Shown one piece after another: positions 7,120 through 25,966 of a stretch of DNA of 64,000 nucleotides. Below the pieces are notes generated by a model. The model ran no database searches and was not told the DNA's origin. It worked only from the letters and a program-made list of their open reading frames with translations. Within the stretch, counting starts at the first letter, position 1; each line of letters starts with the position of its first letter. The position numbers and the translations under genes were made by a program. This DNA comes from Lutibacter sp. (GTDB lineage Bacteria > Bacteroidota > Bacteroidia > Flavobacteriales > Flavobacteriaceae), in NCBI RefSeq assembly GCF_013041805.1, contig NZ_JABDRI010000015.1:1-64000 (forward strand), given 5' to 3'.

Positions 7120-8799
7120 TTAAAACGGAAAAGTTATTTTAACATGTATTCTTGAATTTTTAACATTGAAAGAGGTGCCTTCATTTTTTCCAATGGCATA
7201 GCTTATATTTAAAACACTATTTGTTGATGCAATTGAATAGCCAAGTCCAACACCGAATAGCAATGATGTTTTATTAAATATTTCATCTTGAATCACTGCC
7301 ATATCGGTTATGGAATAAAGAAAGGTTTCTTTATTAGTATAGTACTGATATTCAATATTAGTAATTGAATATTTTGAAGTGAAAATACTTTGCTCATCAA
7401 AACCTCTTATTGTATTTACTCCGCCAATTCTATAGAGTTCATTTTGAAATAAGTTTTTACCCATAAGCAATTCGCTTTTGTTTTTCAATAGAATAGATTG
7501 TTTTTGATTTAATTCAAAAAGGTACTCGGCAGAAAGCTTTATTTTTTCTTGATTGTTTTTAGTTGAGTTATTTATTCTTTCTCCTCGCAGGTATTCAAAA
7601 TTTAGGTGTTGATCTGTGTTTTTGGAACTGCTCAACAATTTATGATTGAATGAAAGTCCAATAAAAGTGCTTTTAAACTCAGAAATATTTAAAAGTGTGT
7701 TAGCATTTGAAGTTGTATTTGATTTTTCATTACTGTAAATTGTATTGATACTATTGCTCTTATTTAGATTGAAATTAACTTGTAAAAGTGATTTGGTATT
7801 TACAAAGGAGGAGTCTTGTTTTAAAATTGAGAATTCGCCTAATGTGCTAAACTTTGTATTAAACAAATATGGATTTTCAATTTTTAGATGTAAAGTTTCT
7901 GTATCATCACCATTATTTTTCCAATTTAAACCAAAAGATTCTCCTTTGTCAAATAAGTTGTTTAAGTTTAAATTTAAAAAACCATTAAAAACAAGTTTAT
8001 TTGTATTTTGTTGATTTGAAAAACCAATAATCCCATCAAATGAGCTTAGTGCTTTTTTTTCTACATATATATATAGTGATGTTGAATCCTTTGTAAATAA
8101 TACTTCAGGTTTCTTTAGTTGCGATATGAAAGGAATAGTATTTAAAGATGCATGTACTGCTTTAATCGTGTTCAAATTAAATATCGATTTTCTTTTTAAG
8201 CCAAGATGGTGTTTGATGTATTTTTTAGGAAATTGATCATAGCCTTTAATAACTATTTGGTTGATTATTCTTTTAGGTGAGATATTCAAGTCTAACTCGG
8301 CAATTATGTTATTATCGTGTTGTTTTAAATGAACCAATGAGGCATTTGAAAATGACGCTCCAGTATTTTCGAAATGATTGACTAAGGTATTTAGTACGAA
8401 TTCAATTCTATCTGTTTGTATTTCAAAAACAGTATCATTATAAGTTGTGCTTATCTTCTTTAAAAGTTTATCCTTTATAGAATTGCGTTGGTAATAAATT
8501 AATACGTTATCAATCTTATTGTTTAAATGAAATTCACAATTAAAAATGGTGTCATTTTGAGATAATGAATAACTGTTATTAATATATCCTTTAAGTGCTA
8601 GTTTTTTTGAAAATATATCAATCTCGTTTATAATATTTTCCTTTGCATGATGCTTTTCCACATAGTTTAAAGATTCAAGAATACTAGAATTGATTGAATC
8701 ATTTGCACGTATATTCAAGGTATAACTTTGAGCATAGATTGATGTCAAAGAAGTTATAGATAATAACAGAAAGAAAATGTGCTTAAAAACTGTTTTCAA
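7120..8799 (-). CDS. Omp85-family outer membrane protein (TamA/BamA-like)
   Basis: This 559-residue protein has a signal peptide (to SIYAQ, about residue 24), POTRA-like repeats (clearest at about 185-255, INQIVIKGYDQFPKKYI) and a C-terminal beta barrel from about residue 256 that ends in Phe. It carries the conserved loop-6 motif RGF within IGGVNTIRGFDEQ. Omp85 proteins insert or translocate proteins, or export other molecules, at the outer membrane. The barrel is full length but the POTRA region is short, so it is closer to TamA or a ShlB-like protein than to the essential BamA. The start codon is TTG, because the frame has a TAG just upstream and no nearby ATG. It is transcribed divergently from rpsL. 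The substrate is unknown. Confidence 0.8.
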   Translation of the reverse strand: MKTVFKHIFFLLLSITSLTSIYAQSYTLNIRANDSINSSILESLNYVEKHHAKENIINEIDIFSKKLALKGYINNSYSLSQNDTIFNCEFHLNNKIDNVLIYYQRNSIKDKLLKKISTTYNDTVFEIQTDRIEFVLNTLVNHFENTGASFSNASLVHLKQHDNNIIAELDLNISPKRIINQIVIKGYDQFPKKYIKHHLGLKRKSIFNLNTIKAVHASLNTIPFISQLKKPEVLFTKDSTSLYIYVEKKALSSFDGIIGFSNQQNTNKLVFNGFLNLNLNNLFDKGESFGLNWKNNGDDTETLHLKIENPYLFNTKFSTLGEFSILKQDSSFVNTKSLLQVNFNLNKSNSINTIYSNEKSNTTSNANTLLNISEFKSTFIGLSFNHKLLSSSKNTDQHLNFEYLRGERINNSTKNNQEKIKLSAEYLFELNQKQSILLKNKSELLMGKNLFQNELYRIGGVNTIRGFDEQSIFTSKYSITNIEYQYYTNKETFLYSITDMAVIQDEIFNKTSLLFGVGLGYSIASTNSVLNISYAIGKNEGTSFNVKNSRIHVKITFPF

Positions 8800-8875
8800 A
8801 ACGCTCTAATTTCGGTTGTCAATATACGAGATATATATGTTGTAAAAATCATTTAAAAAATAAAATATAATCATA

Positions 8876-8907
8876 TTTGAAAAAGAGAAAAATATTTGTA
8901 CATTTGC
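8876..8907 (+). promoter_or_regulatory. Promoter of the rpsL-led ribosomal protein run
   Basis: TTTG at 8876-8879, a 20-base spacer and TACATTTG at 8900-8907 match the Bacteroidota consensus TTTG-N19/21-TAnnTTTG. The leader to the rpsL ATG is about 50 bases. This is the strongest promoter candidate for the str genes. Confidence 0.8.
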
Positions 8908-8962
8908 AAACTCTTTGAAAAGAGCTAAACAATTAAAAAGTAATAAATAAGAAGATTTTAGT

Positions 8963-9337
8963 ATGCCAACAATTTCGCAATTAGTACGAAAAGGAAGAAC
9001 CAAAATAACTAAGAAGAGTAAATCGGCTGCTTTAAATTCATGTCCTCAAAGAAGAGGGGTATGTACACGTGTTTATACTACAACACCTAAAAAACCTAAC
9101 TCTGCAATGCGTAAAGTTGCAAGGGTAAGATTAACAAATGGTAATGAAGTAAATGCATACATTCCTGGAGAAGGACATAATTTACAAGAGCACTCGATAG
9201 TATTAGTTAGAGGTGGAAGGGTTAAAGATTTACCAGGAGTTAGGTATCATATTGTTCGTGGAGCATTAGATACTGCAGGTGTTGATGGAAGAACACAACG
9301 CCGCTCTAAATATGGTACAAAAGCACCTAAAAAGTAA
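8963..9337 (+). CDS. rpsL: 30S ribosomal protein uS12
   Basis: This 124-residue protein sits at the decoding centre of the 30S subunit. The family signature [12 protein letters not shown] (residues 40-51) and the conserved [10 protein letters not shown] loop are present. The lysines of the first motif, where streptomycin-resistance substitutions arise in other bacteria, are the usual ones. It is the first gene of the long ribosomal run, 24 bases before rpsG. Confidence 0.98.
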
Positions 9338-9361
9338 TTTTAAAAACTTTAATGTAAAGAC

Positions 9362-9838
9362 ATGAGAAAAAGAGCAGCGAAAAAAAGAGTGCTTTTACCA
9401 GATCCAAAATTTAACGATCAGTTAGTTACGCGTTTTGTGAACAACTTAATGTGGGCGGGTAAGAAATCAGTAGCTTTTAAAGTATTTTACGATGCGTTAG
9501 ACATTGTAGATCAGAAAAAACAAGATGAAGAAAAATCAGCATTAGAAATTTGGAAAGATGCATTGAGTAATGTAATGCCACAGGTTGAGGTTCGTAGCCG
9601 AAGAGTTGGAGGAGCAACATTTCAAATTCCATCACAAATTAGACCAGACCGTAAGGTGTCTATTGCAATTAAATGGTTAATTTCTTATTCAAGAAAAAGA
9701 AACGAAAAATCAATGGCTCAGCGTTTAGCTGCTGAGGTGTTAGCTGCTGCTAAAGAAGAAGGAGCTGCAGTTAAGAAAAGAATTGATGTTCATAAAATGG
9801 CTGATGCTAATAAAGCATTCTCTCACCTAAGATTTTAA
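9362..9838 (+). CDS. rpsG: 30S ribosomal protein uS7
   Basis: This 158-residue protein nucleates assembly of the 30S head and contacts E-site tRNA. It starts with MRKRAAKKR and carries the conserved helix segment [16 protein letters not shown] and the basic [11 protein letters not shown] stretch. Its length is normal. It lies between rpsL and fusA, with 12 bases to fusA, as in the classic str operon. Confidence 0.98.
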
Positions 9839-9850
9839 TTATAGTTAGAA

Positions 9851-11941
9851 ATGGCAAGAGATTTAAAATATACAAGAAACATAGGAATTGCTGCTCATAT
9901 TGATGCTGGTAAGACAACATGTACAGAGCGTATCCTTTATTATACAGGTGTTTCACATAAAATTGGTGAGGTGCACGATGGTGCCGCAACAATGGACTGG
10001 ATGGAGCAAGAGCAAGAAAGAGGTATTACAATTACTTCTGCCGCTACTCATTGTGAATGGCCTTACAGAGGGCAAAAGTATGTAGTTAATATTATTGATA
10101 CTCCAGGTCACGTTGATTTTACCGTTGAGGTAGAGCGTTCTCTACGTGTATTAGATGGTATGGTTGCTTTATTTAGTGCTGTTGATGGTGTTGAGCCTCA
10201 ATCAGAAACTGTTTGGAGACAAGCTGATAAGTACAAAGTACCAAGACTTGGTTTTGTAAATAAAATGGACCGTCAAGGTTCAGATTTCTTTAATGTGTGT
10301 ACTCAGGTTAAAGAAATGTTAGGAGGAAACCCAGTTCCTTTGCAAGTTCCAATTGGAGATGAAGATGAATTTAGAGGAGTTGTTGACTTAATTTCAAAGA
10401 AAGCAATTATTTGGAATGAAGAAGATAAAGGGATGACTTATGAAGAAATTGAAATTCCTGCAGAATTAGCTGATGAAGTGAATACTCGTCGTGCTGAATT
10501 AGTAGAAGCAGTTGCTGAATATGATGAAGAATTGTTAGAAAAATTCTTTGAGGATGAGGATTCAATTACTGAAGATGAAATAATTGCTGCATTACGTGCT
10601 GCAACTATTGATATGTCTATTATCCCAATGATGTGTGGTTCAGCTTTTAAAAATAAAGGTGTTCAAACAATGTTAGATGCGGTAATGAGATATTTACCAT
10701 CTCCATTAGATATTGAAGCAATTGAAGGAACTGATCCAGATTCTGGAGAACCAGCCTTTAGAAAGCCGAATGTATCTGAGCCTTTCTCAGCATTAGCTTT
10801 TAAAATTGCAACTGATCCTTTTGTAGGTAGGTTAGCATTTTTTAGAGTTTATTCTGGATTTTTAGATGCAGGTTCATATGTGTTAAATGTTCGTTCGGGT
10901 AAAAAAGAGCGTATTTCAAGAATATATCAAATGCACTCTAATAAACAAGAGCCAATTTCAAGAATTGAGGCTGGTGATATTGGAGCGGCAGTAGGTTTTA
11001 AAGATATTAAAACCGGAGATACAATGTCTGATCTTAAAAGCCCAATTATTTTAGAATCAATGTCTTTCCCTGATCCAGTAATTGGTATAGCTGTAGAGCC
11101 TAAAACGAAAGCTGATGTTGACAAGTTAGGAATGGCATTATCAAAATTAGCTGAAGAAGATCCAACATTTGTGGTTAAAACAGATGAGGCTTCTGGTCAA
11201 ACTATTATTTCAGGAATGGGTGAATTGCACCTTGAGATTTTAGTTGATCGTTTAAAGCGTGAATTTAAAGTAGAGGTTAACGAAGGTCAGCCACAAGTTG
11301 AATATAAAGAAGCGATTACTGCGAAAGCTGATCATCGTGAAGTTTATAAGAAGCAATCAGGTGGACGTGGTAAATTTGCTGATATCAAGTTTATTATGGA
11401 GCCAGCTGAAGAAGGAAAAGCAGGATTAACTTTTGTGAATGAAATTAAAGGTGGTAATGTACCTAAGGAATTTATTCCTTCTATTGAAAAAGGCTTTGTA
11501 TCCGCAATGAAAAATGGACCTTTAGCTGGTTACGAAATGGATAGTATGAAAATCACTTTATACGATGGTTCTTTCCACGCAGTGGATTCTGATCAACTAT
11601 CTTTTGAGTTAGCTGCAAAAATGGGTTATAAAGCTGCTGCAAAAGCTGCAAAAGCTGTGATTCTAGAACCAATTATGAAGCTAGAAGTTGTTACTCCTGA
11701 AGAAAATATGGGTGATATTGTTGGTGATTTAAATCGTAGAAGAGGACAAGTAAATGCGATGGATGATAGATCTGGAGCTAAAGTTGTAAAAGCAACTGTT
11801 CCGTTATCTGAAATGTTTGGTTATGTTACAACGTTAAGAACATTGTCATCTGGTAGAGCTACTTCATCTATGGAGTTTGCACACTATGCTCAATGTCCTA
11901 ATAACGTTGCTGAAGAAGTAATAGAAAAAGTAAAGGGTTAA
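9851..11941 (+). CDS. fusA: Elongation factor G
   Basis: This 696-residue GTPase drives tRNA-mRNA translocation. The G motifs are complete: AHIDAGKTT (G1), RGITITSAA (G2 region), DTPGHVDF (G3) and NKMDR (G4). Domains II to V follow, with the domain IV and V motifs SGGRGKFAD and the C-terminal [12 protein letters not shown]. The length is normal for bacterial EF-G. It is the third gene of the str cluster; tuf does not follow it here, and rpsJ comes next after 17 bases. Confidence 0.98.
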
Positions 11942-11958
11942 TCTCTAAATTATAAACG

Positions 11959-12264
11959 ATGAGTCAAAAAATTAGAATAAAATTAAAATCGTACGATTAC
12001 AATTTAGTAGATAAATCTGCTGAAAAAATAGTTAAAACGGTAAAAAACACGGGAGCAGTTGTAAACGGACCAATTCCTTTACCTACTCATAAAAAGATTT
12101 TCACAGTTTTACGTTCACCACACGTAAACAAAAAATCTAGAGAGCAATTCCAATTGAGTTCTTACAAAAGATTATTAGATATCTATAGTTCATCATCAAA
12201 AACTATTGATGCTTTAATGAAGTTAGAATTACCAAGTGGAGTTGAGGTAGAAATTAAAGTATAA
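11959..12264 (+). CDS. rpsJ: 30S ribosomal protein uS10
   Basis: This 101-residue protein belongs to the 30S head and, as NusE, also to antitermination complexes. The conserved GPIPLPT and [12 protein letters not shown] motifs are present. It closes the str part of the run. A 151-base gap with an intrinsic terminator separates it from rplC, although the two genes normally share the S10 operon. Confidence 0.98.
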
Positions 12265-12276
12265 GTACTTTAAATG

Positions 12277-12294
12277 TTGAAAGGAGGCTTTCAA
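12277..12294 (+). promoter_or_regulatory. Hairpin that holds a Shine-Dalgarno sequence in the rplC leader
   Basis: TTGAAAG (12277-12283) pairs with CTTTCAA (12288-12294) around a GAGG loop. The sequence AAAGGAGG inside it is a perfect match to the anti-Shine-Dalgarno region, which is rare in this AT-rich leader background. An ATG follows 11 bases after the GGAGG, so the hairpin could control translation of the 13-codon ORF that starts there. Confidence 0.55.
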
Positions 12295-12298
12295 TAAC

Positions 12299-12340
12299 AT
12301 GTCCGGAGCGGTTGACGAAGGAAAAACGAAAAGAAAATAA
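12299..12340 (+). CDS. Possible 13-residue leader peptide before rplC
   Basis: An ATG at 12299 opens a 13-codon frame (MSGAVDEGKTKRK) ending at TAA 12338-12340, four bases before a strong intrinsic terminator. It is preceded by AAAGGAGG at good spacing. Size and position fit a leader peptide of a transcription-attenuation system, but the frame is short enough to arise by chance. It is supported by context only, and conservation in related genomes has not been tested. Confidence 0.35.
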   Translation: MSGAVDEGKTKRK

Positions 12341-12343
12341 ATT

Positions 12344-12375
12344 CAGGGTTGAATTATTTTCAACCCTGTTTTTTT
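12344..12375 (+). terminator. Intrinsic terminator or attenuator between rpsJ and rplC
   Basis: A perfect 10-bp stem CAGGGTTGAA/TTCAACCCTG with a 5-base loop is followed directly by seven T residues. It is as strong as the terminators at operon ends in this window, yet it lies inside the S10 cluster. No TAnnTTTG promoter is visible between it and rplC, so controlled read-through is likely. Confidence 0.75.
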
Positions 12376-12415
12376 GTAATAAAAATAGAATAATAACAAT
12401 TAATAATTAATTTAA

Positions 12416-13033
12416 ATGTCTGGGTTAATAGGAAGAAAAATCGGAATGACCAGCTTATTTGATGAAAACGGGAAGAATATTCCTTGTACAGTAATCGAAG
12501 CAGGTCCATGCGTTGTTACCCAAGTCAGAACCGAAGAGGTAGATGGGTATAAAGCCCTTCAACTTGGTTTCGATGACAAAAAGGCAAAAAGCTCTAATAA
12601 AGCTTTAGATGGTCACTTTAAAAAGGCCGGAACAACTGCCAAAAGAAAAGTCGTTGAGTTTCAAAGTTTTGATGAGGAGTACAATTTAGGTGATCAACTT
12701 ACAGTTGAGTTGTTTGCGGAAGGTGAATTTGTTGATGTATCAGCAACTTCAAAAGGTAAAGGATTTCAGGGTGTTGTAAAACGTCATGGTTTTGCGGGTG
12801 TAGGTCAAGCTACTCACGGTCAACATAATCGTTTAAGAGCACCGGGGTCAATTGGAGCCGCATCTTATCCTGCTAGAGTATTCAAAGGAATGCGAATGGC
12901 TGGAAGAATGGGAGGAAAAAAAGTAACAGTTCAAAATTTAAGAGTTTTAAAAGTGGTTGCTGAAAAGAATCTACTTGTGGTTAAGGGAGCAGTTCCTGGC
13001 CATAAAAACGCTTATGTAATTATTCAGAAATAA
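12416..13033 (+). CDS. rplC: 50S ribosomal protein uL3
   Basis: This 205-residue protein is one of the first to bind 23S rRNA and reaches the peptidyl-transferase centre with its central loop. The start [15 protein letters not shown] and the signature [14 protein letters not shown] are typical. Its stop codon overlaps the start of rplD by one base (TAATG), which suggests translational coupling. It follows the 151-base leader with the terminator hairpin. Confidence 0.98.
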
Positions 13034-13662
13034 TGAAAGTATCAGTTTTAGACATACAAGGAAAAGATACAGGGAGAACAGTTGAACTTTCTGATGCTGT
13101 ATTTGGAATTGAGCCAAATAATCATGCTGTTTACTTAGATGTAAAACAGTTTTTGGCTAATAAGAGACAGGGAACTAGCAAAGCTAAAGAACGTGCTGAA
13201 ATTTCTGGTAGTACTAGAAAAATTAAGAAGCAAAAAGGTACTGGTACTGCACGTGCTGGTAGTATCAAATCTGGTGTATTCAGAGGTGGAGGACGTATTT
13301 TTGGCCCTAGACCACAAGATCACTCTTTTAAATTAAATAAAAATTTAAAAAGATTAGCACGTAAATCTGCATTAAGTATTCAAGCAAAAGATGAAAATAT
13401 TATAGTTGTTGAAGACTTTAATTTTGAATCTCCAAAAACAAAAAACTTTACAGCTGTTTTAGAGGCCTTTGGTATCGAAAACAAAAAATCGTTATTTGTG
13501 TTGGCTGAGTCAAATAATAATGTATATTTGTCATCGCGCAATTTAAAAAGAGCTAAAATCGTAACTAACACTGGATTAAGCACTTACGAGTTGTTGAATG
13601 TAAATAAAATATTTCTTTCGGAAGGATCTTTGGAAGGAATTGAGTCTAACTTAAGTAAATAG
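13033..13662 (+). CDS. rplD: 50S ribosomal protein uL4
   Basis: This 209-residue protein lines the peptide exit tunnel through its extended loop (GTGTARAGSIKSGVFRGGG). In gamma-proteobacteria uL4 represses its own S10 operon. This makes uL4 a candidate ligand for the leader upstream of rplC, but that is only inferred here. The gene overlaps rplC by one base and ends with TAG. Confidence 0.97.
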   Translation: MKVSVLDIQGKDTGRTVELSDAVFGIEPNNHAVYLDVKQFLANKRQGTSKAKERAEISGSTRKIKKQKGTGTARAGSIKSGVFRGGGRIFGPRPQDHSFKLNKNLKRLARKSALSIQAKDENIIVVEDFNFESPKTKNFTAVLEAFGIENKKSLFVLAESNNNVYLSSRNLKRAKIVTNTGLSTYELLNVNKIFLSEGSLEGIESNLSK

Positions 13663-13673
13663 GTATCAGAGTA

Positions 13674-13964
13674 ATGAATATTTTAATTAAACCTATTATT
13701 ACGGAAAAAGCAACAAACGATAGCGAATTATTTAATCGTTATGCCTTTGTTGTGAATAAAAAAGCTAACAAGCTTGAGATTAAAAATGCTGTAGCCAAGG
13801 CTTATGGTGTTGAAATTGAAAGTGTTAGAACTATGAATTATCCAGTTCAGCGCAATACTAAATTCACTAAAAGTGGAATGGTGCAAGCAATGAAAGGAGC
13901 TTATAAAAAAGCAATAGTTCAGTTAGCAGAAGGAGAGAGTATTGATTTTTATAGCAATATATAA
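13674..13964 (+). CDS. rplW: 50S ribosomal protein uL23
   Basis: This 96-residue protein forms the docking site for trigger factor and SRP at the tunnel exit. It begins MNILIKPIITEKAT and keeps the family pattern NKLEIKNAVAKAYGVEIESVRT. It lies in the normal order, 11 bases after rplD and 6 bases before rplB. Confidence 0.97.
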   Translation: MNILIKPIITEKATNDSELFNRYAFVVNKKANKLEIKNAVAKAYGVEIESVRTMNYPVQRNTKFTKSGMVQAMKGAYKKAIVQLAEGESIDFYSNI

Positions 13965-13970
13965 TAAAAA

Positions 13971-14795
13971 ATGTCAGTTAGAAAATTAAAACCAGTAACA
14001 CCAGGTCAGCGTTTTAGAGTAGTGAATGGGTTCGACACCATTACTACTGATAAGCCGGAGAAAAGTTTATTAGCTTCGAAAAAAAGGTCTGGAGGTCGAA
14101 ACAACAGTGGAAAAATGACAATGCGCCATTTAGGTGGTGGTCATAAAAAGAAATACCGTATTATCGATTTTAAAAGAGATAAAAGTGGTGTTCCTGCAAC
14201 AGTAAAATCTATAGAGTACGATCCAAATCGTACAGCGTTTATCGCTTTATTATCTTATGTAGATGGTGAGAAGCGTTATATAATTGCTCAAAATGGATTA
14301 AAGGTAGGGCAGAAATTAATTTCAGGTGAAGGAGCTACTCCAGATGTTGGAAATATGATGCTGTTAAGTGAAATACCTTTAGGAACTACAATCTCTTGTA
14401 TTGAGTTACACCCAGGTCAAGGAGCTGTTTTAGCTCGAAGTGCTGGTGCATTCGCTCAGTTAATGGCAAGAGAGGGGAAATACGCAACAATAAAATTACC
14501 ATCTGGAGAAACAAGATTAGTTCTTGTTACATGCAGTGCTGTAATTGGAGTTGTATCTAATTCAGATCATCAATTACTAGTTTCAGGAAAAGCGGGTAGA
14601 TCTAGATGGTTAGGAAGAAGACCTAGAGTACGACCTGTAGTAATGAATCCTGTTGATCATCCAATGGGTGGTGGAGAAGGAAAATCTTCAGGTGGTCATC
14701 CAAGATCTAAGAATGGAATTCCTGCAAAAGGGTTCAAAACTAGATCTAAGACTAAGGCGAGTAATAAATATATTATAGAACGTAGAAAAAAATAA
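13971..14795 (+). CDS. rplB: 50S ribosomal protein uL2
   Basis: This 274-residue protein supports the peptidyl-transferase centre and subunit joining. The C-terminal signature with the catalytically important histidine region, [17 protein letters not shown], is intact, as is the N-terminal [14 protein letters not shown] segment. Length and gene order are normal. Confidence 0.98.
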
Positions 14796-14802
14796 TTGAT
14801 AT

Positions 14803-15081
14803 ATGGCACGTTCATTAAAAAAAGGACCTTACGTTTTTCGTAAACTAGATAAGAAAGTTCAGTCAAATTTAGACTCAGGTAAAAAGGCAGTAATCAAAAC
14901 GTGGTCAAGAGCCTCTATGATTACACCTGACTTTGTTGGTCAAACAATTGCTGTTCACAATGGTCGTCAGTTTGTACCAGTTTATGTAACTGAAAACATG
15001 GTAGGGCATAAATTAGGAGAATTTTCGCCAACGCGTTCTTATAGAGGACACGCAGGTGCAAAAAACAAAGGAAAAAAATAG
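14803..15081 (+). CDS. rpsS: 30S ribosomal protein uS19
   Basis: This 92-residue protein of the 30S head starts with the family motif [11 protein letters not shown] and ends in the conserved [17 protein letters not shown] segment with a basic tail. It uses a TAG stop, one of several ordinary TAG stops in this window. It lies 9 bases before rplV. Confidence 0.98.
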
Positions 15082-15090
15082 TAGGTAATC

Positions 15091-15501
15091 ATGGGAGTTC
15101 GTAAAAAATTAAGAGCACAGCAGATAAAAGAGGAGAAAAAGCAAATAGCTTTTGCTAAGCTTACAGGTTGTCCTACATCACCGAGAAAAATGCGGTTAGT
15201 TGCAGATTTAGTAAGAGGTGTTGAAGTTGAAAAAGCACTTCAAATCTTAAAGTTTAACTCTAAAGAAGCATCAATTAATCTTGAGAAATTATTATTGAGT
15301 GCCATTGCAAATTGGCAAGCAAAAAATGAAGACGCAAGTATTGAAGATGCAGGTTTATTTGTTAAATCTATATTTGTAGATAGCGCAGGAATGTTAAAAA
15401 GATTAAGACCAGCACCTCAAGGGCGCGCACATCGTATTAGAAAACGTTCTAATCATGTAACTTTAATCTTAGGAAGTAAAAACGTTAGCAAACAATCATA
15501 A
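15091..15501 (+). CDS. rplV: 50S ribosomal protein uL22
   Basis: This 136-residue protein has a globular domain at the tunnel exit and a long beta hairpin in the tunnel, seen here as the segment around [19 protein letters not shown]. The N-terminus is somewhat longer and more basic than in E. coli ([18 protein letters not shown]). The order between rpsS and rpsC is normal. Confidence 0.97.
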
Positions 15502-15507
15502 GTAGAA

Positions 15508-16236
15508 ATGGGACAAAAAACAAATCCAATAGGAAATCGTTTAGGAATTATCAGAGGATGGGATTCTAACTGGTATGGAGGAAGAAACTACGGCGATAAA
15601 ATTGCTGAAGATGATAAAATAAGAAGGTATGTTCATGCCCGATTATCAAAAGCAAGTGTTTCAACTGTAATTATAGAGCGTACACTTAAACTTGTAACCG
15701 TTACTATCACTACTGCTAGACCTGGAATTATTATCGGGAAAGGTGGTCAAGAGGTAGACAAGTTAAAAGAAGAGCTTAAGAAAATTACAGGTAAAGAAGT
15801 GCAAATTAATATTTTTGAAATTAAACGTCCAGAATTAGACGCACGTTTAGTTGGTGCTAGCATCGCTCGTCAAATTGAGAATAGAATCTCATACCGTAGA
15901 GCAATAAAAATGGCTATTGCTGCTACAATGCGAATGAATGCTGAAGGAATTAAAGTTCAAATTTCAGGAAGATTAAATGGAGCTGAGATGGCAAGATCAG
16001 AACACTATAAAGAAGGTAGAATTCCTCTATCTACTTTTAGAGCTGATATTGACTATGCACTTGTTGAAGCTCATACTACATACGGACGTTTAGGCGTAAA
16101 AGTATGGATTATGAAAGGCGAGGTTTATGGTAAAAGAGAATTATCACCACTAGTAGGTCTTTCCAAAAAGCAAGGAAAAGGCGGTAATGATAGAGGTGGA
16201 AATTCAAAAAGACCACAGCCACGTAGAAGAAAATAA
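15508..16236 (+). CDS. rpsC: 30S ribosomal protein uS3
   Basis: This 242-residue protein lies at the mRNA entry site. It starts [20 protein letters not shown] and has a KH domain with the GxxG motif ([13 protein letters not shown], near residues 75-87). The C-terminal S3 domain follows and ends in a basic tail. Length and position are normal. Confidence 0.98.
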
Positions 16237-16259
16237 TTTTTTAAAATTTAGAATTTAAA

Positions 16260-16688
16260 ATGTTACAGCCAAAGAGAGTTAAATATCGTAAAGTACAGAA
16301 GGGTAAAGGGAACATGACAGGGAATTCTCAAAGAGGACACCAGCTTTCAAATGGAATGTTTGGGATAAAATCTTTAGAACAAGACTTACTTACTTCTCGT
16401 CAAATCGAAGCGGCACGTATTGCAGCAACTCGTCATATGAAAAGAGAAGGCCAGTTATGGATTAAAATATTTCCGGATAAACCAATTACCAAAAAACCAT
16501 TAGAAGTACGTATGGGTAAAGGTAAAGGTGCTCCAGAATATTTTGTTGCCGTAGTTAAGCCTGGTAGAATAATGTTTGAGGTAGGAGGAGTTCCTGCTCA
16601 CGTAGCAAAAGAAGCTTTGCGTTTAGCAGCACAAAAATTGCCTGTTAAAACTAAACTTGTTGTAGCTAGAGATTTTGATAACGCTTAA
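16260..16688 (+). CDS. rplP: 50S ribosomal protein uL16
   Basis: This 142-residue protein helps place aminoacyl-tRNA in the A site. It begins [16 protein letters not shown] and keeps the motifs [16 protein letters not shown] and [19 protein letters not shown]. The gene lies 23 bases after rpsC and 15 bases before rpmC, as expected. Confidence 0.98.
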
Positions 16689-16703
16689 TAACCGATTAAG
16701 AAA

Positions 16704-16895
16704 ATGAAACAATCTGAAATTATAGGATTATCAACAGAAGAGTTGCAAGAGAAGCTTGGAAGTTTAAAGAAGAGTTATACTGATCTAAAATTGGCTCATT
16801 CAATTTCACCATTGGAAACACCAATGCAGTTGAGAGCACTTAGAAGAACTGTTGCACGCGTTGCTACAGAATTAACTAAAAGAGATTTACAATAA
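16704..16895 (+). CDS. rpmC: 50S ribosomal protein uL29
   Basis: This 63-residue protein is a two-helix hairpin at the tunnel exit. The family pattern LSTEELQEKL and the arginine-rich LRALRRTVARVATEL helix are clear. It sits between rplP and rpsQ. Confidence 0.96.
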   Translation: MKQSEIIGLSTEELQEKLGSLKKSYTDLKLAHSISPLETPMQLRALRRTVARVATELTKRDLQ

Positions 16896-16910
16896 TTGTA
16901 TTCAGTAAAG

Positions 16911-17168
16911 ATGGAAAAAAGAAATCTTAGAAAAGAAAGAATAGGGGTAGTTTCTAGCAATAAAATGGAGAAGTCTATTGTTGTTGCGGAAGTTAAAAAG
17001 GTGAAGCACCCTATGTACGGAAAATTCGTGTTAAGTACAAAAAAGTATGTAGCACACGATGAGACAAATGATTGCAATATTGGAGATACTGTTAGAATAA
17101 TGGAAACACGTCCAATGAGTAAATCTAAACGTTGGAGGTTAGTAGAAATCCTAGAAAGAGCTAAATAA
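16911..17168 (+). CDS. rpsQ: 30S ribosomal protein uS17
   Basis: This OB-fold protein binds early in 30S assembly. The start is set at the ATG at 16911 ([16 protein letters not shown]), giving 85 residues, the usual length. A TTG at 16896 would add five residues with no family support and would directly follow the rpmC stop. The motifs [13 protein letters not shown] and [15 protein letters not shown] are typical. Confidence 0.96.
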
Positions 17169-17170
17169 TT

Positions 17171-17542
17171 ATGTTACAAACAGAATCAAGATTACGAGTA
17201 GCTGATAATACTGGAGCTAAAGAAGTTTTAGTAATACGAGTTTTAGGAGGAACCAAAAAGAGATATGCTTCTATTGGAGATAAAATTGTAGTAACTATTA
17301 AAGATGCTACACCTAATGGAACTGTTAAAAAAGGACAAGTGTCTAAAGCAGTAGTTGTCAGAACGAAGAAAGAAATCAGAAGAAAAGACGGATCTTATAT
17401 AAGATTTGATGATAATGCTTGTGTATTATTAGATGCTACTTCTGGTGAAATGAAAGGAACACGTGTATTTGGACCTGTTGCTAGAGAACTTCGTGAAAAA
17501 CAATTTATGAAAATTGTATCATTAGCACCTGAAGTGCTTTAA
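17171..17542 (+). CDS. rplN: 50S ribosomal protein uL14
   Basis: This 123-residue protein contacts 16S rRNA at an intersubunit bridge and is the docking site of RsfS-type silencing factors. It has the near-invariant start [18 protein letters not shown] and the ending [19 protein letters not shown]. It lies two bases after rpsQ. Confidence 0.98.
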
Positions 17543-17557
17543 TAAACTATTTATACG

Positions 17558-17863
17558 ATGAAGTTAAAGATTAAATCAGGAGATAGTGTTCGAGTTATGG
17601 CAGGAGACCATAAGGGTGAAGAAGGAAAGGTAGTCACTATTTTTCCAAATAAAAATAGAGCTATTGTTGAAGGTGTCAATATGATATCTAAACATACAAA
17701 ACCTAGTGCACAGAATCCTCAAGGAGGAATTGTTAAAAAGGAAGCTTCTATACATATTTCAAACTTAATGTTACTTGAAAATGGAGAAGTAACAAAGGTT
17801 GGTTATAAAATGGAGGCTGATAAGAAAATTAGAGTTTCTAAAAAAACTGATAAAGCAATTTAG
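17558..17863 (+). CDS. rplX: 50S ribosomal protein uL24
   Basis: This 101-residue protein is an initiator of 50S assembly with a KOW motif ([17 protein letters not shown], near residue 8-24). It also has the conserved [17 protein letters not shown] segment. It ends with a TAG stop two bases before rplE. Confidence 0.97.
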
Positions 17864-17865
17864 TT

Positions 17866-18417
17866 ATGAGTTATATACCAAGACTTAAAGAAGAGTATAA
17901 GACTAGAGTAATTAAGGCTCTTACTGAAGAATTTAGTTACAAAAATGTAATGCAAGTTCCTAGATTACAGAAAATTGTAATTAGTAAAGGTGTAGGTGCT
18001 GCTGTAGCTGATAAGAAATTAGTTGATTATGCTGTAGATGAATTGACTATGATTTCAGGTCAAAAAGCCGTATCAACAATATCAAAAAAGGATGTTGCTG
18101 CATTTAAATTACGTAAAGGTGTGCCAATTGGTGCGAAAGTTACTTTACGTGGGGTTAAAATGTATGAATTTTTAGATAGGTTAGTAACTGCATCATTACC
18201 TCGTGTAAGAGATTTTAACGGTATCAAAGCAAATGGTTTTGATGGTAGAGGAAATTATAATTTAGGTATTACTGAGCAAATAATCTATCCAGAAATAGAT
18301 ATTGATAAAGTAAATAAAATTAGTGGAATGGATATTACTTTTGTAACATCTGCAAACACTGATAAAGAAGCAAAATCATTATTGAGTGAACTAGGTTTAC
18401 CATTTAAAAAGAATTAA
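17866..18417 (+). CDS. rplE: 50S ribosomal protein uL5
   Basis: This 183-residue protein binds 5S rRNA in the central protuberance. The motifs [25 protein letters not shown] and the C-terminal [20 protein letters not shown] are typical. Length and order (rplX-rplE-rpsN) are normal. Confidence 0.98.
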
Positions 18418-18420
18418 GGA

Positions 18421-18690
18421 ATGGCTAAAGAATCAATGAAAGCCCGTGAGGTTAAGAGACAAAAAGTAGTTGCTAAATATGCTGAGAAAAGAAAGGCTTT
18501 AAAAGAAGCTGGAGATTATGAAGCATTGCAAAAGTTACCAAAAAATGCATCACCTATTCGTTTACACAACCGTTGTAAATTAACTGGTAGACCAAAAGGT
18601 TATATGAGACAATTTGGAATCTCACGTGTTACATTTCGTGAAATGGCAAATCAAGGTTTAATACCGGGAGTTAGAAAAGCTAGCTGGTAA
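18421..18690 (+). CDS. rpsN: 30S ribosomal protein uS14, zinc-independent form
   Basis: This 89-residue protein is the long form of uS14. It lacks the paired CxxC zinc ligands of the short form; only one Cys is present ([18 protein letters not shown]). It therefore does not need zinc. The bL36 protein in this run is also zinc-free. A 62-base gap with a possible hairpin separates it from rpsH. Confidence 0.96.
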
Positions 18691-18701
18691 AATTATAAAT
18701 T

Positions 18702-18738
18702 GGTTATAGGTTCATTTGTAAAATTGAAAACCCTAACC
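18702..18738 (+). promoter_or_regulatory. Candidate leader hairpin before rpsH
   Basis: GGTTA (18702-18706) pairs with TAACC (18734-18738), and after a small internal loop GGTT (18709-18712) pairs with AACC (18729-18732), closing a 16-base loop. It lies in the largest gap within the spc part except for those before rplC and rpsD. In E. coli uS8 controls the spc operon through mRNA. A similar role here is only inferred. Confidence 0.3.
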
Positions 18739-18752
18739 GCAAATTAATAAAA

Positions 18753-19151
18753 ATGATTACAGATCCAATTGCAGATTATCTAACTCGAGTTAGAAACGCT
18801 ATTATGGCGGGCCATAGAGTTGTTGAAGTTCCAGCATCTAAGGTAAAGAAAGAAATAACCAAGATTTTATTTGATCAAGGTTATATACTAAGCTACAAAT
18901 TTGAAGACACAAGTTTTCAAGGTACAATTAAGATAGCTTTGAAATATGACAAAGCGACGAAAGCTTCTGTTATTAAAAAATTACAACGTGTAAGTACACC
19001 TGGTGTTCGTAGATATGTTGGTGCAAATGAAATGCCTCGTGTATTGAACGGATTAGGAATAGCGATAGTTTCAACATCTCATGGTGTGATGACTGGTAAA
19101 AAAGCTACTCAGGAGCACGTAGGTGGTGAGGTTTTATGTTACGTATATTAA
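18753..19151 (+). CDS. rpsH: 30S ribosomal protein uS8
   Basis: This 132-residue protein binds the central domain of 16S rRNA and in E. coli represses the spc operon. It starts MITDPIADYLTRVRNAIMAGH and ends with the conserved STSHGVMTGKKATQEHVGGEVLCYVY pattern, here split over its last 26 residues. It follows the hairpin-bearing gap after rpsN. Confidence 0.97.
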   Translation: MITDPIADYLTRVRNAIMAGHRVVEVPASKVKKEITKILFDQGYILSYKFEDTSFQGTIKIALKYDKATKASVIKKLQRVSTPGVRRYVGANEMPRVLNGLGIAIVSTSHGVMTGKKATQEHVGGEVLCYVY

Positions 19152-19168
19152 TAAAGAACTAAGTAGAG

Positions 19169-19714
19169 ATGTCAAGAATAGGAAATAACCCAATTACTTT
19201 ACCAGCAGGTATTACTCTCGATATTAAAGAGAATGTTGTAACTGTAAAAGGTAAGTTGGGAGAGTTAACTCAGGAAATAACAGACGGTATTACAGTAAAA
19301 GTTGAAGAAGGGAAAGTTATTGTAGAGCGCCCATCAGATAGTAAAACACACAGAGCAAAACATGGTTTGTACAGATCTTTACTAAACAATATGATTTTTG
19401 GTGTTGCTGAAGGATGGACTAAAGAATTAGAACTTGTAGGTGTAGGATATAGAGCAAGTAACCAAGGGCAAGTTTTAGATTTAGCTTTAGGTTTTTCGCA
19501 TAATATTGTTTTAGATATTGCTCCTGAAGTTAAAGTAGAAGCTGTATCAGAAAAAGGGAAAAATCCAAGAGTAAAATTAACTTCATTTGATAAACAATTG
19601 GTTGGTGCTGTTGCGGCTAAGATTCGTTCTTTCCGTAAACCTGAACCATACAAAGGAAAAGGAGTTAAATTTGTAGGAGAAATATTAAGAAGAAAAGCAG
19701 GAAAATCTGCATAA
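19169..19714 (+). CDS. rplF: 50S ribosomal protein uL6
   Basis: This 181-residue protein sits near the sarcin-ricin loop. Two alpha/beta repeats are visible, with the start MSRIGNNPITLPAGI and the C-terminal signature PEPYKGKGVKFVGE followed by a basic tail. Length and order are normal. Confidence 0.98.
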   Translation: MSRIGNNPITLPAGITLDIKENVVTVKGKLGELTQEITDGITVKVEEGKVIVERPSDSKTHRAKHGLYRSLLNNMIFGVAEGWTKELELVGVGYRASNQGQVLDLALGFSHNIVLDIAPEVKVEAVSEKGKNPRVKLTSFDKQLVGAVAAKIRSFRKPEPYKGKGVKFVGEILRRKAGKSA

Positions 19715-19727
19715 TAAGTAAAGTATT

Positions 19728-20081
19728 ATGGCATTATCAAAGCTTCAAAGAAGGCAAAGAATTAAGCATAGAATCAGAAAGGTTATTTTTGGTACCGCTA
19801 CTAAACCGAGATTATCGGTATTTAGAAGCAACAAAGAAATTTATGCTCAATTAGTAGATGACAATTCTGGTGCTACTTTAGTATCGGTTTCATCTAGAAA
19901 TAAAGAAATAGAAACAGCAGGTTCAAAATCAGACGTTGCAAAAGCAGTAGGTAAAACTATCGCAGAAAAAGCAAAGAGTGCTGGTATTGAAACAGTTGCT
20001 TTTGATAGAAATGGATTTTTATATCACGGTAGAGTTAAAGCTCTAGCAGACGCTGCAAGAGAAGCAGGTTTAAAATTTTAA
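19728..20081 (+). CDS. rplR: 50S ribosomal protein uL18
   Basis: This 117-residue protein binds 5S rRNA with uL5. It has the motifs [20 protein letters not shown] and [24 protein letters not shown]. It lies 6 bases before rpsE. Confidence 0.98.
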
Positions 20082-20087
20082 TATATT

Positions 20088-20612
20088 ATGTATCACAAAT
20101 ACAAAAACGTAGAAAGAGTTAAGCCTAGCGGGTTAGAACTACAGGATCACTTAGTTGGTGTACAAAGAGTTACTAAAGTAACAAAAGGGGGTAGAGCATT
20201 TGGTTTTTCAGCTATTGTTGTAGTTGGAGATGGAAATGGTGTTGTTGGACAAGGACTAGGAAAGTCTAAGGATGTTGCATCTGCTATTGCAAAAGCAATC
20301 GAAGATGCAAAGAAAAATTTGGTTAGAATACCAATTATTAAACAAACATTACCACATGAACAAAAGGGTAAGTTTGGTGGAGCAAGAGTATTCTTGAAGC
20401 CAGCTTCACATGGTACCGGAGTTATAGCTGGTGGTGCTGTGCGTGCCGTACTAGAGTCTGTTGGTGTACATGACGTACTTTCAAAATCTCAAGGATCTTC
20501 AAACCCACACAATGTTGTAAAAGCTACTTTTGATGCTTTATTACAATTGCGTAGTGCAAGTATGATTGCTAAGGAAAGAGGTATTTCTTTAGAAAAAGTT
20601 TTTAACGGATAA
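20088..20612 (+). CDS. rpsE: 30S ribosomal protein uS5
   Basis: This 174-residue protein acts in decoding accuracy and mRNA unwinding. The double-stranded-RNA-binding N domain has [18 protein letters not shown]. The C domain has the [19 protein letters not shown] motif and the ending [15 protein letters not shown]. Length and order are normal. Confidence 0.98.
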
Positions 20613-20617
20613 AAGGG

Positions 20618-20806
20618 ATGGCGATGGCAAAAATAAAAGTAACACAAGTAAAAAGTAAAATTAGACGTCCTCAAAATCAGAAAAGAACTCTTGAGGCTCT
20701 TGGTTTAAGAAAGATTAATCAAGTTGTTGAACATGATGCTACTCCTGCTATTTTAGGAATGGTAGATACTGTTTCACACTTAGTTTCTGTTGAGGAAATT
20801 AAATAA
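20618..20806 (+). CDS. rpmD: 50S ribosomal protein uL30
   Basis: This small protein (62 residues from the ATG at 20618, or 60 from the ATG two codons on) has the family motifs IKVTQVKSKIRRPQNQKRTLEALGLRK over two segments, and VEHDATPAILGMVDTVSHLV. It lies between rpsE and rplO as usual. The choice between the two ATGs cannot be settled from sequence. Confidence 0.95.
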   Translation: MAMAKIKVTQVKSKIRRPQNQKRTLEALGLRKINQVVEHDATPAILGMVDTVSHLVSVEEIK

Positions 20807-20819
20807 TATTTTATAAGAG

Positions 20820-21272
20820 ATGACATTAAATAACTTACAACCTGCAAAGGGATCGGTTAAAACACAAGGAAAACGTGTAGGTAGAGGACAAGGTTCTGGT
20901 AAAGGTGGCACAGCAACAAGAGGTCATAAAGGTGCTAAATCTCGTTCAGGATATTCACGAAAAGTTGGTTTTGAAGGTGGTCAAATGCCTTTACAACGTC
21001 GTGTTCCTAAATTTGGTTTCACAAATATTAATCGTAAAGAATATGTTGGTGTAAACTTACATAAATTACAAGAACTTGTTGATAATAAGAAAATTTCGGA
21101 TACAGTAACATTTGATATATTAGTTGAGAATAGATTAGCACGTAAAAATGACCTAGTGAAAATATTAGGAAGTGGTGAGCTAACAGCAAAATTAAATGTG
21201 AAAGTTCATAAATTTACTGCAACTGCAAAAGCAGCAATTGAAAAAGCTGGAGGCTCAGCTGAAATGTTATAA
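20820..21272 (+). CDS. rplO: 50S ribosomal protein uL15
   Basis: This 150-residue protein has a long glycine- and arginine-rich N-terminal extension (KRVGRGQGSGKGGTATRGHK) that threads into the 50S core, and a globular C-terminal domain ending in HKFTATAKAAIEKAGGS. It lies 12 bases before secY. Confidence 0.98.
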   Translation: MTLNNLQPAKGSVKTQGKRVGRGQGSGKGGTATRGHKGAKSRSGYSRKVGFEGGQMPLQRRVPKFGFTNINRKEYVGVNLHKLQELVDNKKISDTVTFDILVENRLARKNDLVKILGSGELTAKLNVKVHKFTATAKAAIEKAGGSAEML

Positions 21273-21284
21273 TACTTAGCTATA

Positions 21285-22619
21285 ATGAAAAAATTTATTC
21301 AAACCATTAAAGACATTTGGAGTATAGAGGAACTTAGAAATAAGATTCTTTTGACACTTGGATTTATGGCAATTTATCGTTTAGCTGCTCAAGTGCCGCT
21401 GCCAGGAATTGATATTACTGTTGCTCAAGCAGCACTTAAAAATCAAACAAGTGGTGGAGGAATTCTTGGATTATTAGATATGTTTACAGGAGGTGCGTTT
21501 GCGCAAGCCTCTATTGTTGCATTAGGTATAATGCCTTATATCTCAGCCTCTATTGTTGTTCAGTTAATGGGAATTGCTGTTCCTTATTTACAAAAGCTTC
21601 AAAAGGATGGTGAAAGTGGTAGAAAGAAGATCAATCAAATAACTCGTTGGCTAACTATTGCTATTACAATGGTTCAAGGTCCTGCATATATTACTAATAT
21701 TTATCAACTTATACCTTCTGAAGCATTTTATATTAGCGGAAGTATGTTCTGGTTGTCATCTATGGTGATTTTAACAGCAGGTACTATTTTTGCAATGTGG
21801 TTAGGAGAAAAAATTACAGATAAAGGAATTGGAAATGGTATTTCATTATTGATAATGATTGGTATTATTGCTCGTTTCCCATCATCTTTTATACAAGAAG
21901 TGGTTTCAAAAGTTACTGCATCTAATGGTGGTTTGATAATGATCCTACTTGAAGTTATCGTATGGTTTTTAGTAATATTAGTATGTGTTTATTTAGTGAC
22001 GGCTGTTCGTAGAATTGCAGTACAATATGCTCGTAAAACGGTTGCTGGTAATATTAAAAATGTTGCGGGTTCAAGAGATTACATACCTTTAAAGTTAAAT
22101 TCATCAGGGGTTATGCCTATTATATTTGCTCAAGCTATTATGTTTGCGCCTGCATTAATGGCTAACTCTGATAATAATACAATTAAATCAATTGGAATTG
22201 AGTTTTCAAATATGTTTGGTTTGTGGTATAATTTGTTATTTGCATTCTTAATTATAGTATTTAGTTATTTTTATACTGCAATTACGATTCCTACGAACAA
22301 AATGGCTGATGATTTAAAAAGAAGTGGTGGATTTATACCAGGTATTAGACCTGGAAAAGATACGGGTGAATTATTAGATCGAGTATTGTCGTTAATTACA
22401 TTTCCGGGATCTATATTTTTAGCATTAGTAGCTATTTTACCAGCAATAGTGGTTAAGTTTGGATTAACACAATCGTGGGCATTATTTTATGGTGGTACTT
22501 CATTATTAATTATGGTTGGAGTAGCTATAGATACTATTCAGCAGATTAATTCACATTTATTGAATCGTCATTATGATGGCTTAATGAAAAAAGGAACTAA
22601 ACGAAAATCAGTAGCATAA
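21285..22619 (+). CDS. secY: Preprotein translocase subunit SecY
   Basis: This 444-residue integral membrane protein forms the Sec channel. Ten hydrophobic helices can be recognised. The conserved [21 protein letters not shown] region, the loop [21 protein letters not shown] and the C-terminal cytosolic loop with [14 protein letters not shown] are present. SecY-dependent export feeds the many lipoproteins and outer-membrane proteins encoded here. It is followed after one base by infA, without adk or map between them. Confidence 0.98.
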
Positions 22620-22620
22620 T

Positions 22621-22836
22621 ATGGCAAAACAACCAGCAATACAGCAAGACGGGACAATTACGGAAGCATTGTCAAATGCAATGTTTCGTGTAGAGTTGGA
22701 AAATGGACATGTTGTAACTGCACATATTTCAGGTAAAATGCGTATGCATTATATTAAATTATTACCAGGTGATAAGGTGAAGTTAGAAATGAGTCCATAC
22801 GATTTATCAAAAGCAAGAATTACTTACAGATATTAA
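22621..22836 (+). CDS. infA: Translation initiation factor IF-1
   Basis: This 71-residue OB-fold protein blocks the A site during initiation. It begins [20 protein letters not shown] and carries the motifs [20 protein letters not shown] and [13 protein letters not shown]. It starts one base after secY, which suggests coupled translation. Confidence 0.97.
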
Positions 22837-22846
22837 AGTATAAACG

Positions 22847-22963
22847 ATGAAAGTTAGAACATCAGTAAAAAAGAGAAGTGCCGAGTGCAAGATTGTGCGT
22901 AGAAAAGGCAGATTATATGTAATCAATAAAAAGAATCCTAGATTTAAACAAAGACAAGGATAA
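22847..22963 (+). CDS. rpmJ: 50S ribosomal protein bL36, zinc-independent form
   Basis: This 38-residue protein starts at the ATG at 22847 ([15 protein letters not shown]) and ends RFKQRQG. It lies in the usual place between infA and rpsM. Compared with the zinc-binding form (C-x2-C, C, H), three of the four ligands are replaced: the first Cys is Ser, the third is Asn and the His is Phe. Only one Cys remains. It is thus the zinc-free type, in line with the zinc-free uS14 of the same cluster. Confidence 0.95.
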
Positions 22964-22965
22964 TT

Positions 22966-23340
22966 ATGGCAAGAATAGCAGGTATTGATATTCCAAAAAA
23001 TAAAAGAGGAGTTATTGCATTAACTTATATTTTTGGAATTGGAAAAAGCAGAGCTAAAGAAATTTTAGCTGCAGCAAAAGTTGATGAAGGTACAAAAGTT
23101 CAAGATTGGACTGATGAAGAAATTCACGACATTAGAGAGCAAGTAGGTGATTACACTATTGAAGGTGAATTGCGTTCGGAAACTCAGTTAAACATTAAGC
23201 GTTTAATGGACATTGGGTGTTACAGAGGAATTCGTCACAGATCAGGATTGCCATTAAGAGGTCAAAGAACTAAGAATAACTCTAGGACCAGAAAAGGTAA
23301 GCGTAAAACTGTAGCTAACAAGAAAAAAGCAACTAAATAA
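22966..23340 (+). CDS. rpsM: 30S ribosomal protein uS13
   Basis: This 124-residue protein contacts P-site tRNA and 50S bridges. It has the motif [20 protein letters not shown] and the C-terminal signature [19 protein letters not shown] with a basic tail. It starts two bases after rpmJ and heads the alpha part of the run. Confidence 0.98.
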
Positions 23341-23351
23341 TAACTAAGATT

Positions 23352-23735
23352 ATGGCGAAAGCAAGTACTAAAAAACGTAAAGTTATTGTTGAGACTGTTG
23401 GTGAAGCTCATATCACTGCTTCATTCAACAATATTATTATCTCATTAACTAATAAGAAAGGTGACGTAATTTCATGGTCATCAGCTGGAAAAATGGGTTT
23501 TAGAGGTTCTAAAAAGAACACACCATATGCAGCTCAATTGGCTGCTGAAGATTGTGCAAAAATAGCGCATGAAGCTGGTATGAGAAAAGTAAAAGTGTAT
23601 GTAAAAGGGCCAGGTAACGGAAGAGAATCAGCAATTAGATCAATCCATAATTTAGGAATAGAAGTTTCTGAAATTATCGATGTTACACCTGCACCGCATA
23701 ATGGTTGTAGACCACCAAAGAGAAGAAGAGTATAA
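23352..23735 (+). CDS. rpsK: 30S ribosomal protein uS11
   Basis: This 127-residue platform protein has the conserved [19 protein letters not shown] and [15 protein letters not shown] motifs, and ends in [16 protein letters not shown]. An 81-base gap with a structured element separates it from rpsD. Confidence 0.98.
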
Positions 23736-23752
23736 TTAATTAATTTTTAACA

Positions 23753-23801
23753 GATAGGAATTAGATTATCGAAGGATTAGCCTTAATTCATAATCCCTAT
23801 C
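23753..23801 (+). promoter_or_regulatory. Candidate structured leader of rpsD
   Basis: A nested fold is visible. GATAGG (23753-23758) pairs with CCTATC (23796-23801), GATTAT (23764-23769) with ATAATC (23790-23795), and AAGG (23772-23775) with CCTT (23781-23784). A 5-base bulge lies on the left side. The fold ends 15 bases before the ATG. uS4 is the known autoregulator of the alpha operon in several phyla, so a uS4-binding leader is a reasonable guess. No terminator is present, so control would be translational. Confidence 0.5.
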
Positions 23802-23816
23802 ATATAATAATAAAAA

Positions 23817-24422: not shown

Positions 24423-24444
24423 TCTTAAAGATACCAATTCAATT

Positions 24445-25437: not shown

Positions 25438-25473
25438 GTTAAAACTTTGGTTTTAATTAAGACAAGATAAGAG

Positions 25474-25941: not shown

Positions 25942-25966
25942 CTAATGAAAACTAGTTAATAACATT

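Follow-up and report, generated by a model that had tools for sequence, protein, structure and literature searches.

In Escherichia coli, transcription is believed to terminate in the leader of the S10 operon through the action of uL4 together with NusA, as stated in the accessible portion of PMC10931766. For the same operon, r-protein leaders have been predicted for S10 in Firmicutes/Clostridia and for L4 in Archaeoglobi (Eckert and Weinberg 2020, PMC7247131, text available in part); the Bacteroidota leaders named in that portion of the article are those of L13, S4, S15, S16 and L19, with none for rplC or S10. The S4-Flavobacteria leader is described there as a hairpin that resembles neither other S4 leaders nor rRNA to any meaningful degree. 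A survey across 50 bacterial genomes reported an S10 leader in Peptostreptococcaceae and 30 leader candidates (PMC11109978, in excerpt), and in the excerpted main text neither "flavobacteri" nor "bacteroid" occurs. The transcriptome of Flavobacterium psychrophilum yielded 64 structured 5′ regions (PMC9723704, in excerpt). No report of an rplC leader in Bacteroidota was found in the open-licence PMC library. To our knowledge, little has been established about how Bacteroidota control r-protein synthesis.

The window analyzed here is a stretch of 64,000 nucleotides of Lutibacter sp., from a genome of 2.8 Mb in 107 contigs. Among named relatives its uL3 is closest to that of Lutibacter citreus, with 95% identity, which points to the same genus. 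Its gap between rpsJ and rplC holds a structured RNA element of about 100 nt that recurs between the same genes in relatives (Table 1). From 5′ to 3′, the element presents the hairpin P0, the motif ACAUG, the hairpin P2, the motif AAAAACGG, a linker, and the mutually exclusive antiterminator and terminator hairpins. Behind rplC follow rplD and then more ribosomal genes up to rplQ (gene names assigned by reading the translations). Of 200 dinucleotide shuffles of the gap, all but one fold less well than the gap itself (z -3.4). In a terminator scan of positions 8000-27000 the hairpin of the element ranks first, its 10 pairs including 5 of G-C; weaker terminator-like sites are common, as the same scan returned 14 sites against 7.6 expected (sd 3.0). 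The initial annotation had pointed to a TTGAAAG-GAGG-CTTTCAA hairpin at 12277-12294 and to a 10-bp terminator stem with seven T, and both are present as claimed. The antiterminator was absent from that reading.

Table 1 Genes and parts of the element around the rpsJ-rplC gap of the Lutibacter sp. window
Feature	Position	Strand	Remarks
rpsJ (uS10)	11959..12264	+	final gene 5′ of the element
P0, 5′ hairpin	12275..12296	+	from the fold; loop side in the window reads AAAGGAGG
Conserved ACAUG, including the ATG of the 13-codon frame	12297..12301	+	100 aligned copies
P2, small UCC...GGA hairpin with variable apical part, putative sensor	12302..12322	+	paired changes
AAAACGG motif 3′ of P2, AAAACGA in the window	12323..12329	+	100 aligned copies
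Predicted antiterminator hairpin AAAAUAA(A)UUCA-GGGU-UGAAUUAUUUU	12334..12360	+	fold of truncated transcripts; outer arms change jointly
Predicted terminator hairpin CAGGGUUGAA-UUAUU-UUCAACCCUG	12344..12368	+	perfect 10-bp stem 12344-12353/12359-12368, loop of 5; bases in common with the antiterminator; both-side changes in 7/8 modelled pairs
U run 3′ of the terminator	12369..12375	+	seven T in the window; T run of at least 5 in 93/128 copies
rplC (uL3)	12416..13033	+	first gene 3′ of the element

Two other structured sites belong to the surroundings of the element. The S4-Flavobacteria r-leader (RF03141, 51.9 bits) lies upstream of rpsD in the same cluster, at 23764-23795 (+), and a 14-bp hairpin with a T-rich tail at 25967-25998 (+), 3′ of rplQ, probably marks the end of the ribosomal cluster. 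At the gathering threshold, Rfam 15 recognizes only S4-Flavobacteria in the whole window, away from the element, and six loci carrying the element gave no Rfam 15 match at E ≤5. We rate the element as a putative new r-protein leader or attenuator that is not matched in Rfam 15.

TAnnTTTG is the promoter box of Bacteroidota. It is absent from positions 12101-12420, in keeping with the earlier remark that no promoter of the phylum type is visible before rplC; with no box seen in the window, the element here would control transcripts that read through from rpsJ or from further upstream. The gap could be read in 73 of 80 named loci. As raw counts, uncorrected for chance occurrence, these 73 gaps comprise 9 with both element and box, 31 with the element and no box (32 with L163, whose element the search pattern missed), 13 with the box and no element, and 20 with neither (19 if L163 is taken out). 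In 15 of the last group the gap is at most 60 nt long. A two-box pattern, counted in the same raw manner, places a promoter-like site 5′ of the element in 10 of 108 copies. For the minority of genomes with a box between rpsJ and the element, the latter would form the 5′ leader of the rplC transcript.

Conserved core and genomic context

The motifs on either side of P2 are nearly invariant. Over 100 aligned copies, the positions of ACAUG keep A in 100, C in 91, A in 99, U in 100 and G in 100, and those of AAAACGG keep A in 100, A in 100, A in 97, A in 100, C in 93, G in 100 and G in 98; the last place is A, as in the window, in 2 copies. The flanks of P2 are thus almost invariant on both sides in these copies. 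The tip of P2 varies in form and is seen as a GA/GA internal loop, fully paired or longer.

Among 60 sampled genomes of the family, 59 yielded rpsJ; the gaps that follow carry the core in 50 of the 59, with 9 lacking it. A covariance model (R1; 82 positions, 14 pairs) was run on 299 genomes of the family. At E ≤0.01 it matches 245, four of these matches being weak (E 3.5e-4 to 6e-3), and leaves 54 without a match. Multiple matches were listed for 24 genomes; the 22 that were searched again with R1 have one strong match each, the others reaching at most 33.3 bits. Beyond the family, an order-wide draw gave 27 matches among 296 genomes at E ≤0.001, of which 24 lie in the family and 3, all weak, in another family, and a class-wide draw gave 13 among 295, of which 4 belong to the family and the other 9 are weak. 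Neither draw produced a strong R1 match in other families. The 12 matches outside the family (L132-L143, 30-40 bits) are read as chance terminators, because their loci are without rplC or rpsJ, and the 8 weak second matches inside it (L110-L117) are read likewise.

All 62 strong loci fetched by the genome-wide R1 search have rpsJ before the element and rplC within 600 nt after it, the consistent position upstream of r-protein genes that is asked of an r-leader. Counting every distinct copy, 130 of 130 precede rplC and 108 also have rpsJ in the locus; many of these were fetched via rpsJ or rplC and constitute no test of context, and the fair count is 62.

The element is not uniform in its presence. 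In the genus of the window, 19 of 24 genomes have a match; among the 5 unmatched, 4 assemblies show no rplC and 1 has rplC cut at a contig end. In the order draw, one large genus (g127) accounts for at least 19 of the listed genomes without a match and for none of those with one. The gaps of five chosen g127 members resemble those of named Flavobacterium, and R1 has no match on the named Flavobacterium loci. Gaps of the Flavobacterium type (L186, L188, L189, L194, L238, L239, L240) show, in their last 120 nt, a TAnnTTTG box and a near-identical CUCCCUGUUUGGAAAUUUCUGUUAUUUUCAAAUUGAAGGGAAUUUUAG, a candidate for another leader of the same operon. In Chryseobacterium and kin (L210, L216, L242, L243, L244) the last 150 nt hold a promoter-like box and a leader resembling GGGGCGUAGUAUGCCUACAUCAAACGUAGAAAUUACUUCAGAC, with L244 more diverged. 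In Pedobacter/Sphingobacterium (L207, L209, L211, L217, L221) the last 150 nt before rplC show a promoter-like box followed by a conserved CUUGARCGAAGCCCUACUGCUUCGAUGG hairpin, whose closing stem varies in a paired way (CACC/GGGUG, GUCU/GGAC) and which is possibly another rplC leader. Kinship of the element with this Sphingobacteriaceae hairpin was considered; the P2 model (R2) fails to match it. The same gap hence differs by Bacteroidota lineage, being filled by this element, by other conserved candidate leaders behind promoter boxes, or by a close junction of rpsJ and rplC, and these differences offer a natural series for the rewiring of r-protein control.

Shine-Dalgarno sequence and short reading frame

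Bacteroidota ribosomes generally make no use of Shine-Dalgarno sequences. The initial annotation had proposed an attenuator in which a Shine-Dalgarno hairpin and a 13-codon leader ORF are the working parts. The idea of an attenuator between rpsJ and rplC stands in outline, as its hairpins are kept and covary among relatives; the mechanism by Shine-Dalgarno sequence and short ORF is rejected on 108 and 131 copies plus 20 sequences of the genus. The frame itself exists, running from the ATG at 12299 to the TAA at 12338-12340, with three bases, not four, between it and the terminator stem. The comparison of relatives' gaps that had been proposed as a check bears out the hairpin structure and its covariation, but not the conservation of the ORF or of GGAGG.

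The 60 nt upstream contain GGAGG or AAGGAG in 4 of 108 copies, that of the window being one of these four; among genus sequences, 1 of 20 has it. A use of the strong Shine-Dalgarno sequence like that before rpsU, to which the initial annotation had pointed, would need this sequence to be conserved, and these counts speak against it. Elsewhere in the genus the loop GAGG of the window reads AAAA, AACA or GCAA, and the stem is rebuilt with other bases. The hairpin as such is common. Of 137 distinct upstream 40-mers, 117 have one of at least 5 bp that ends no more than 6 nt from ACAUG, whereas 49% of mononucleotide shuffles do; the mean energies are -8.1 and -3.6 kcal/mol, respectively. P0 is therefore likely a real part of the element, its stem being kept while its sequence is free, and the AAAGGAGG on the loop side in the window seems to be there by chance.

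That translation of the 13-codon ORF, aided by the AAAGGAGG hairpin, picks termination or read-through according to a leader peptide or the ribosome state is hardly credible. It would account for the ATG, which is kept in 130 of 131 frames; the ATG is there as part of the near-invariant ACAUG. A precedent is given by the extended Shine-Dalgarno sequence before rpsU, found in many Flavobacteriales and tied to regulation, which in F. johnsoniae involves ribosomes lacking bS21 (PMC9976891, text available in part). Against this, a conserved short ORF with regulatory codons was not found among the 131 frames (one of which is a spurious match): they range from 2 to 49 codons, 52 reach the stop right after two codons, and a length of 13 codons occurs 5 times. 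The genus shows Met-Ser-stop in 4 of 20 sequences and 13 codons twice (the window and L249). Moreover, P2 varies in length by single bases, and the frame shifts accordingly.

Alternative hairpins

The pairing of terminator and P2 is supported in two alignments. In 100 aligned copies, 95.2% of the cells pair against 85.4% in shuffles, with both-side changes in 11 of 14 pairs, in an alignment that was fitted to the structure and so is biased towards it; versions of the same alignment with the partners slid pair in 25-45% of cells. A MAFFT alignment of 40 copies, with the structure drawn by eye, gives 95.7% paired against 87.9% in shuffles. On four of five covariation measures none of 500 shuffles reaches the observed value in either alignment, and on the fifth 3 of 500 and 2 of 500 do. 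These results give the conserved, covariation-backed RNA structure that is asked of an r-leader, by tests that ignore shared ancestry. In P2, the third CG pair changes to UA, and the apical pairs GC and CG both change to AU; its weak pairs are the fourth, unpaired in 35 of 100 copies, and the last apical one, unpaired in 14 of 100. In 35 of 128 copies the T run behind the terminator is no longer than four, so in about a quarter of the copies termination may be inefficient or the hairpin may have another use.

The linker 5′ of the terminator is complementary to the terminator loop. Over 106 distinct pairs, the complementarity of the arms is 13.8 with the own loop and 12.1 (sd 0.19) with exchanged loops, and over 91 distinct copies the antiterminator energy is -4.87 kcal/mol for the own linker and loop and -3.08 kcal/mol (sd 0.17) for chimeras; in each case 0 of 20,000 permutations reaches the observed value, ancestry being ignored. 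The signal resides in the ensemble and not in single copies, where the own loop has a median rank of 0.40 among all loops because the arms are rich in A and U and the same type recurs in many copies. Many different arm sequences take part in the joint changes, such as AAAAUAC/GUAUUUU, AAACAAU/AUUGUUU, AAAAGAAAA/UUUUCUUUU and AAAAAUG/CAUUUUU. The near-invariant UUC and GAA have a double use, as partners in the antiterminator and, in part, in pairing with the 3′ arm of the terminator; where they vary, they too can do so jointly, as with UUU facing AAA in L052 and UCUA facing UAGA in L160.

In folds of transcripts truncated after the loop, the linker pairs with the loop in 122 of 124 copies, and in transcripts one arm longer the terminator forms in 124 of 124. 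The predicted energies in the window are -3.5 kcal/mol for the antiterminator, which by this model is weak, and -14.9 kcal/mol for the terminator. An H-type pseudoknot of the linker with the terminator loop was the initial interpretation of the covarying arms; it was dropped because the arms together with UUC/GAA make one hairpin in the truncated transcripts, using bases in common with the terminator. As predicted structures, then, two mutually exclusive hairpins are present and the later one is the terminator. The modelled order of parts, in which a conserved domain is followed by an early antiterminator and then by a later, stronger terminator, matches an attenuator. Support is good for the element as an RNA and, at the level of prediction, for its being a switch.

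Two other roles bear on these hairpins. An unregulated intrinsic terminator that ends the str-rpsJ transcript with a constant leak would suit the good hairpin and its U run, as well as the simple hairpins seen in the gap of several relatives that do not have the element; it leaves both the joint changes of the antiterminator arms and the near-invariant ACAUG, P2 and AAAAACGG unexplained, and we regard it as unlikely. Still a little less probable is an element of processing or stability, in which cleavage separates the rpsJ and rplC messages, or a small RNA is made, and transcription is not decided. The weak U run of 35 of 128 copies and the location between two coding units agree with such a role, whereas the order of the alternative hairpins, antiterminator and then terminator, disagrees with it, as do the upstream promoter-like boxes of some genomes, which would make the element an rplC leader.

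Proposed mechanism and relation to known leaders

We consider it somewhat better than an even bet that the element, kept in most of the Flavobacteriaceae sampled, is a cis-regulatory RNA controlling whether transcription continues into rplC and the ribosomal genes behind it, with an r-protein of the cluster as presumed ligand. By analogy, it probably gates the S10-spc-alpha genes through feedback by such a protein, uL4 or uL3. As RNA polymerase leaves rpsJ, the antiterminator could form first, because its 3′ arm is transcribed ahead of the 3′ arm of the terminator. Its displacement by the stronger terminator would depend on the P2 domain, which adjoins the 5′ arm of the antiterminator. An r-protein in excess over rRNA would bind P2 and its flanks and block the pairing of this arm, so that transcription would stop near 12375; with the r-protein scarce, transcription would continue. 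Among possible ligands, a protein encoded in the cluster ranks first, with uL4 ahead of uL3, since the element is found only before rplC/rplD and uL4 has the precedent of E. coli. Binding of either protein had been suggested in the initial annotation and is possible under the present model.

Many r-leaders resemble the rRNA site of their ligand, although this is no requirement. Mimicry of rRNA was not seen, because the P2 model (R2) has no match in the 23S record of one relative (E ≤10, default filters). In local alignments of five elements with a 23S record, the scores likewise stay below the best of 100 shuffles each. A short likeness in 23S rRNA, AUGUCC GAG AGGGAAA, was noticed post hoc and is not counted: in the 23S rRNA of a relative (L060, 2491-2513), AUGUCCGAGAGGGAAAGAAC resembles AUGUCC...GAGGGAAAAAC minus the tip of P2, a resemblance that the model missed. 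A looser 23S likeness, also noticed post hoc and not counted, falls in what we take to be the uL4 site.

The lack of rRNA likeness in the model search would also suit a small-molecule riboswitch, in which P2 with its flanks would recognize an indicator of growth rate, either a metabolite or an alarmone, and act through the same antiterminator and terminator. Its compact, highly conserved domain beside a standard expression platform fits this description. Riboswitches often serve several genes, and the single rpsJ-rplC context in 62 of 62 strong loci is instead typical of r-protein leaders; we find the riboswitch improbable. We are equally doubtful of the broader proposal that P2, ACAUG and AAAAACGG form a receptor for a signal other than a cluster protein, such as an alarmone or another growth-rate signal. 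If this were true, the element would be a switch of ribosome supply with a new class of ligand, one gate for the S10, spc and alpha genes including rpoA, and this gate would set their expression by deciding read-through from the str-rpsJ transcript.

On the favored reading, with an r-protein of the cluster as ligand, the element would control entry into the largest cluster of ribosomal genes, as well as into rpoA, and it is defined and testable, with named arms. The S10 leader of E. coli lies before rpsJ and has other hairpins, whereas the element lies between rpsJ and rplC. The two are alike in serving the same genes, in being structured leaders and in their intrinsic terminator, which is believed to be used in E. 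coli (PMC10931766, accessible portion). The S10 and L4 r-leaders predicted in the available portion of PMC7247131 concern the same operon in other lineages. The S4-Flavobacteria leader differs from the element in being a 33-position model before rpsD, for which that portion of PMC7247131 describes no antiterminator/terminator pair. It resembles the element as a flavobacterial r-leader of the same gene cluster, which therefore seemingly has at least two RNA control points.
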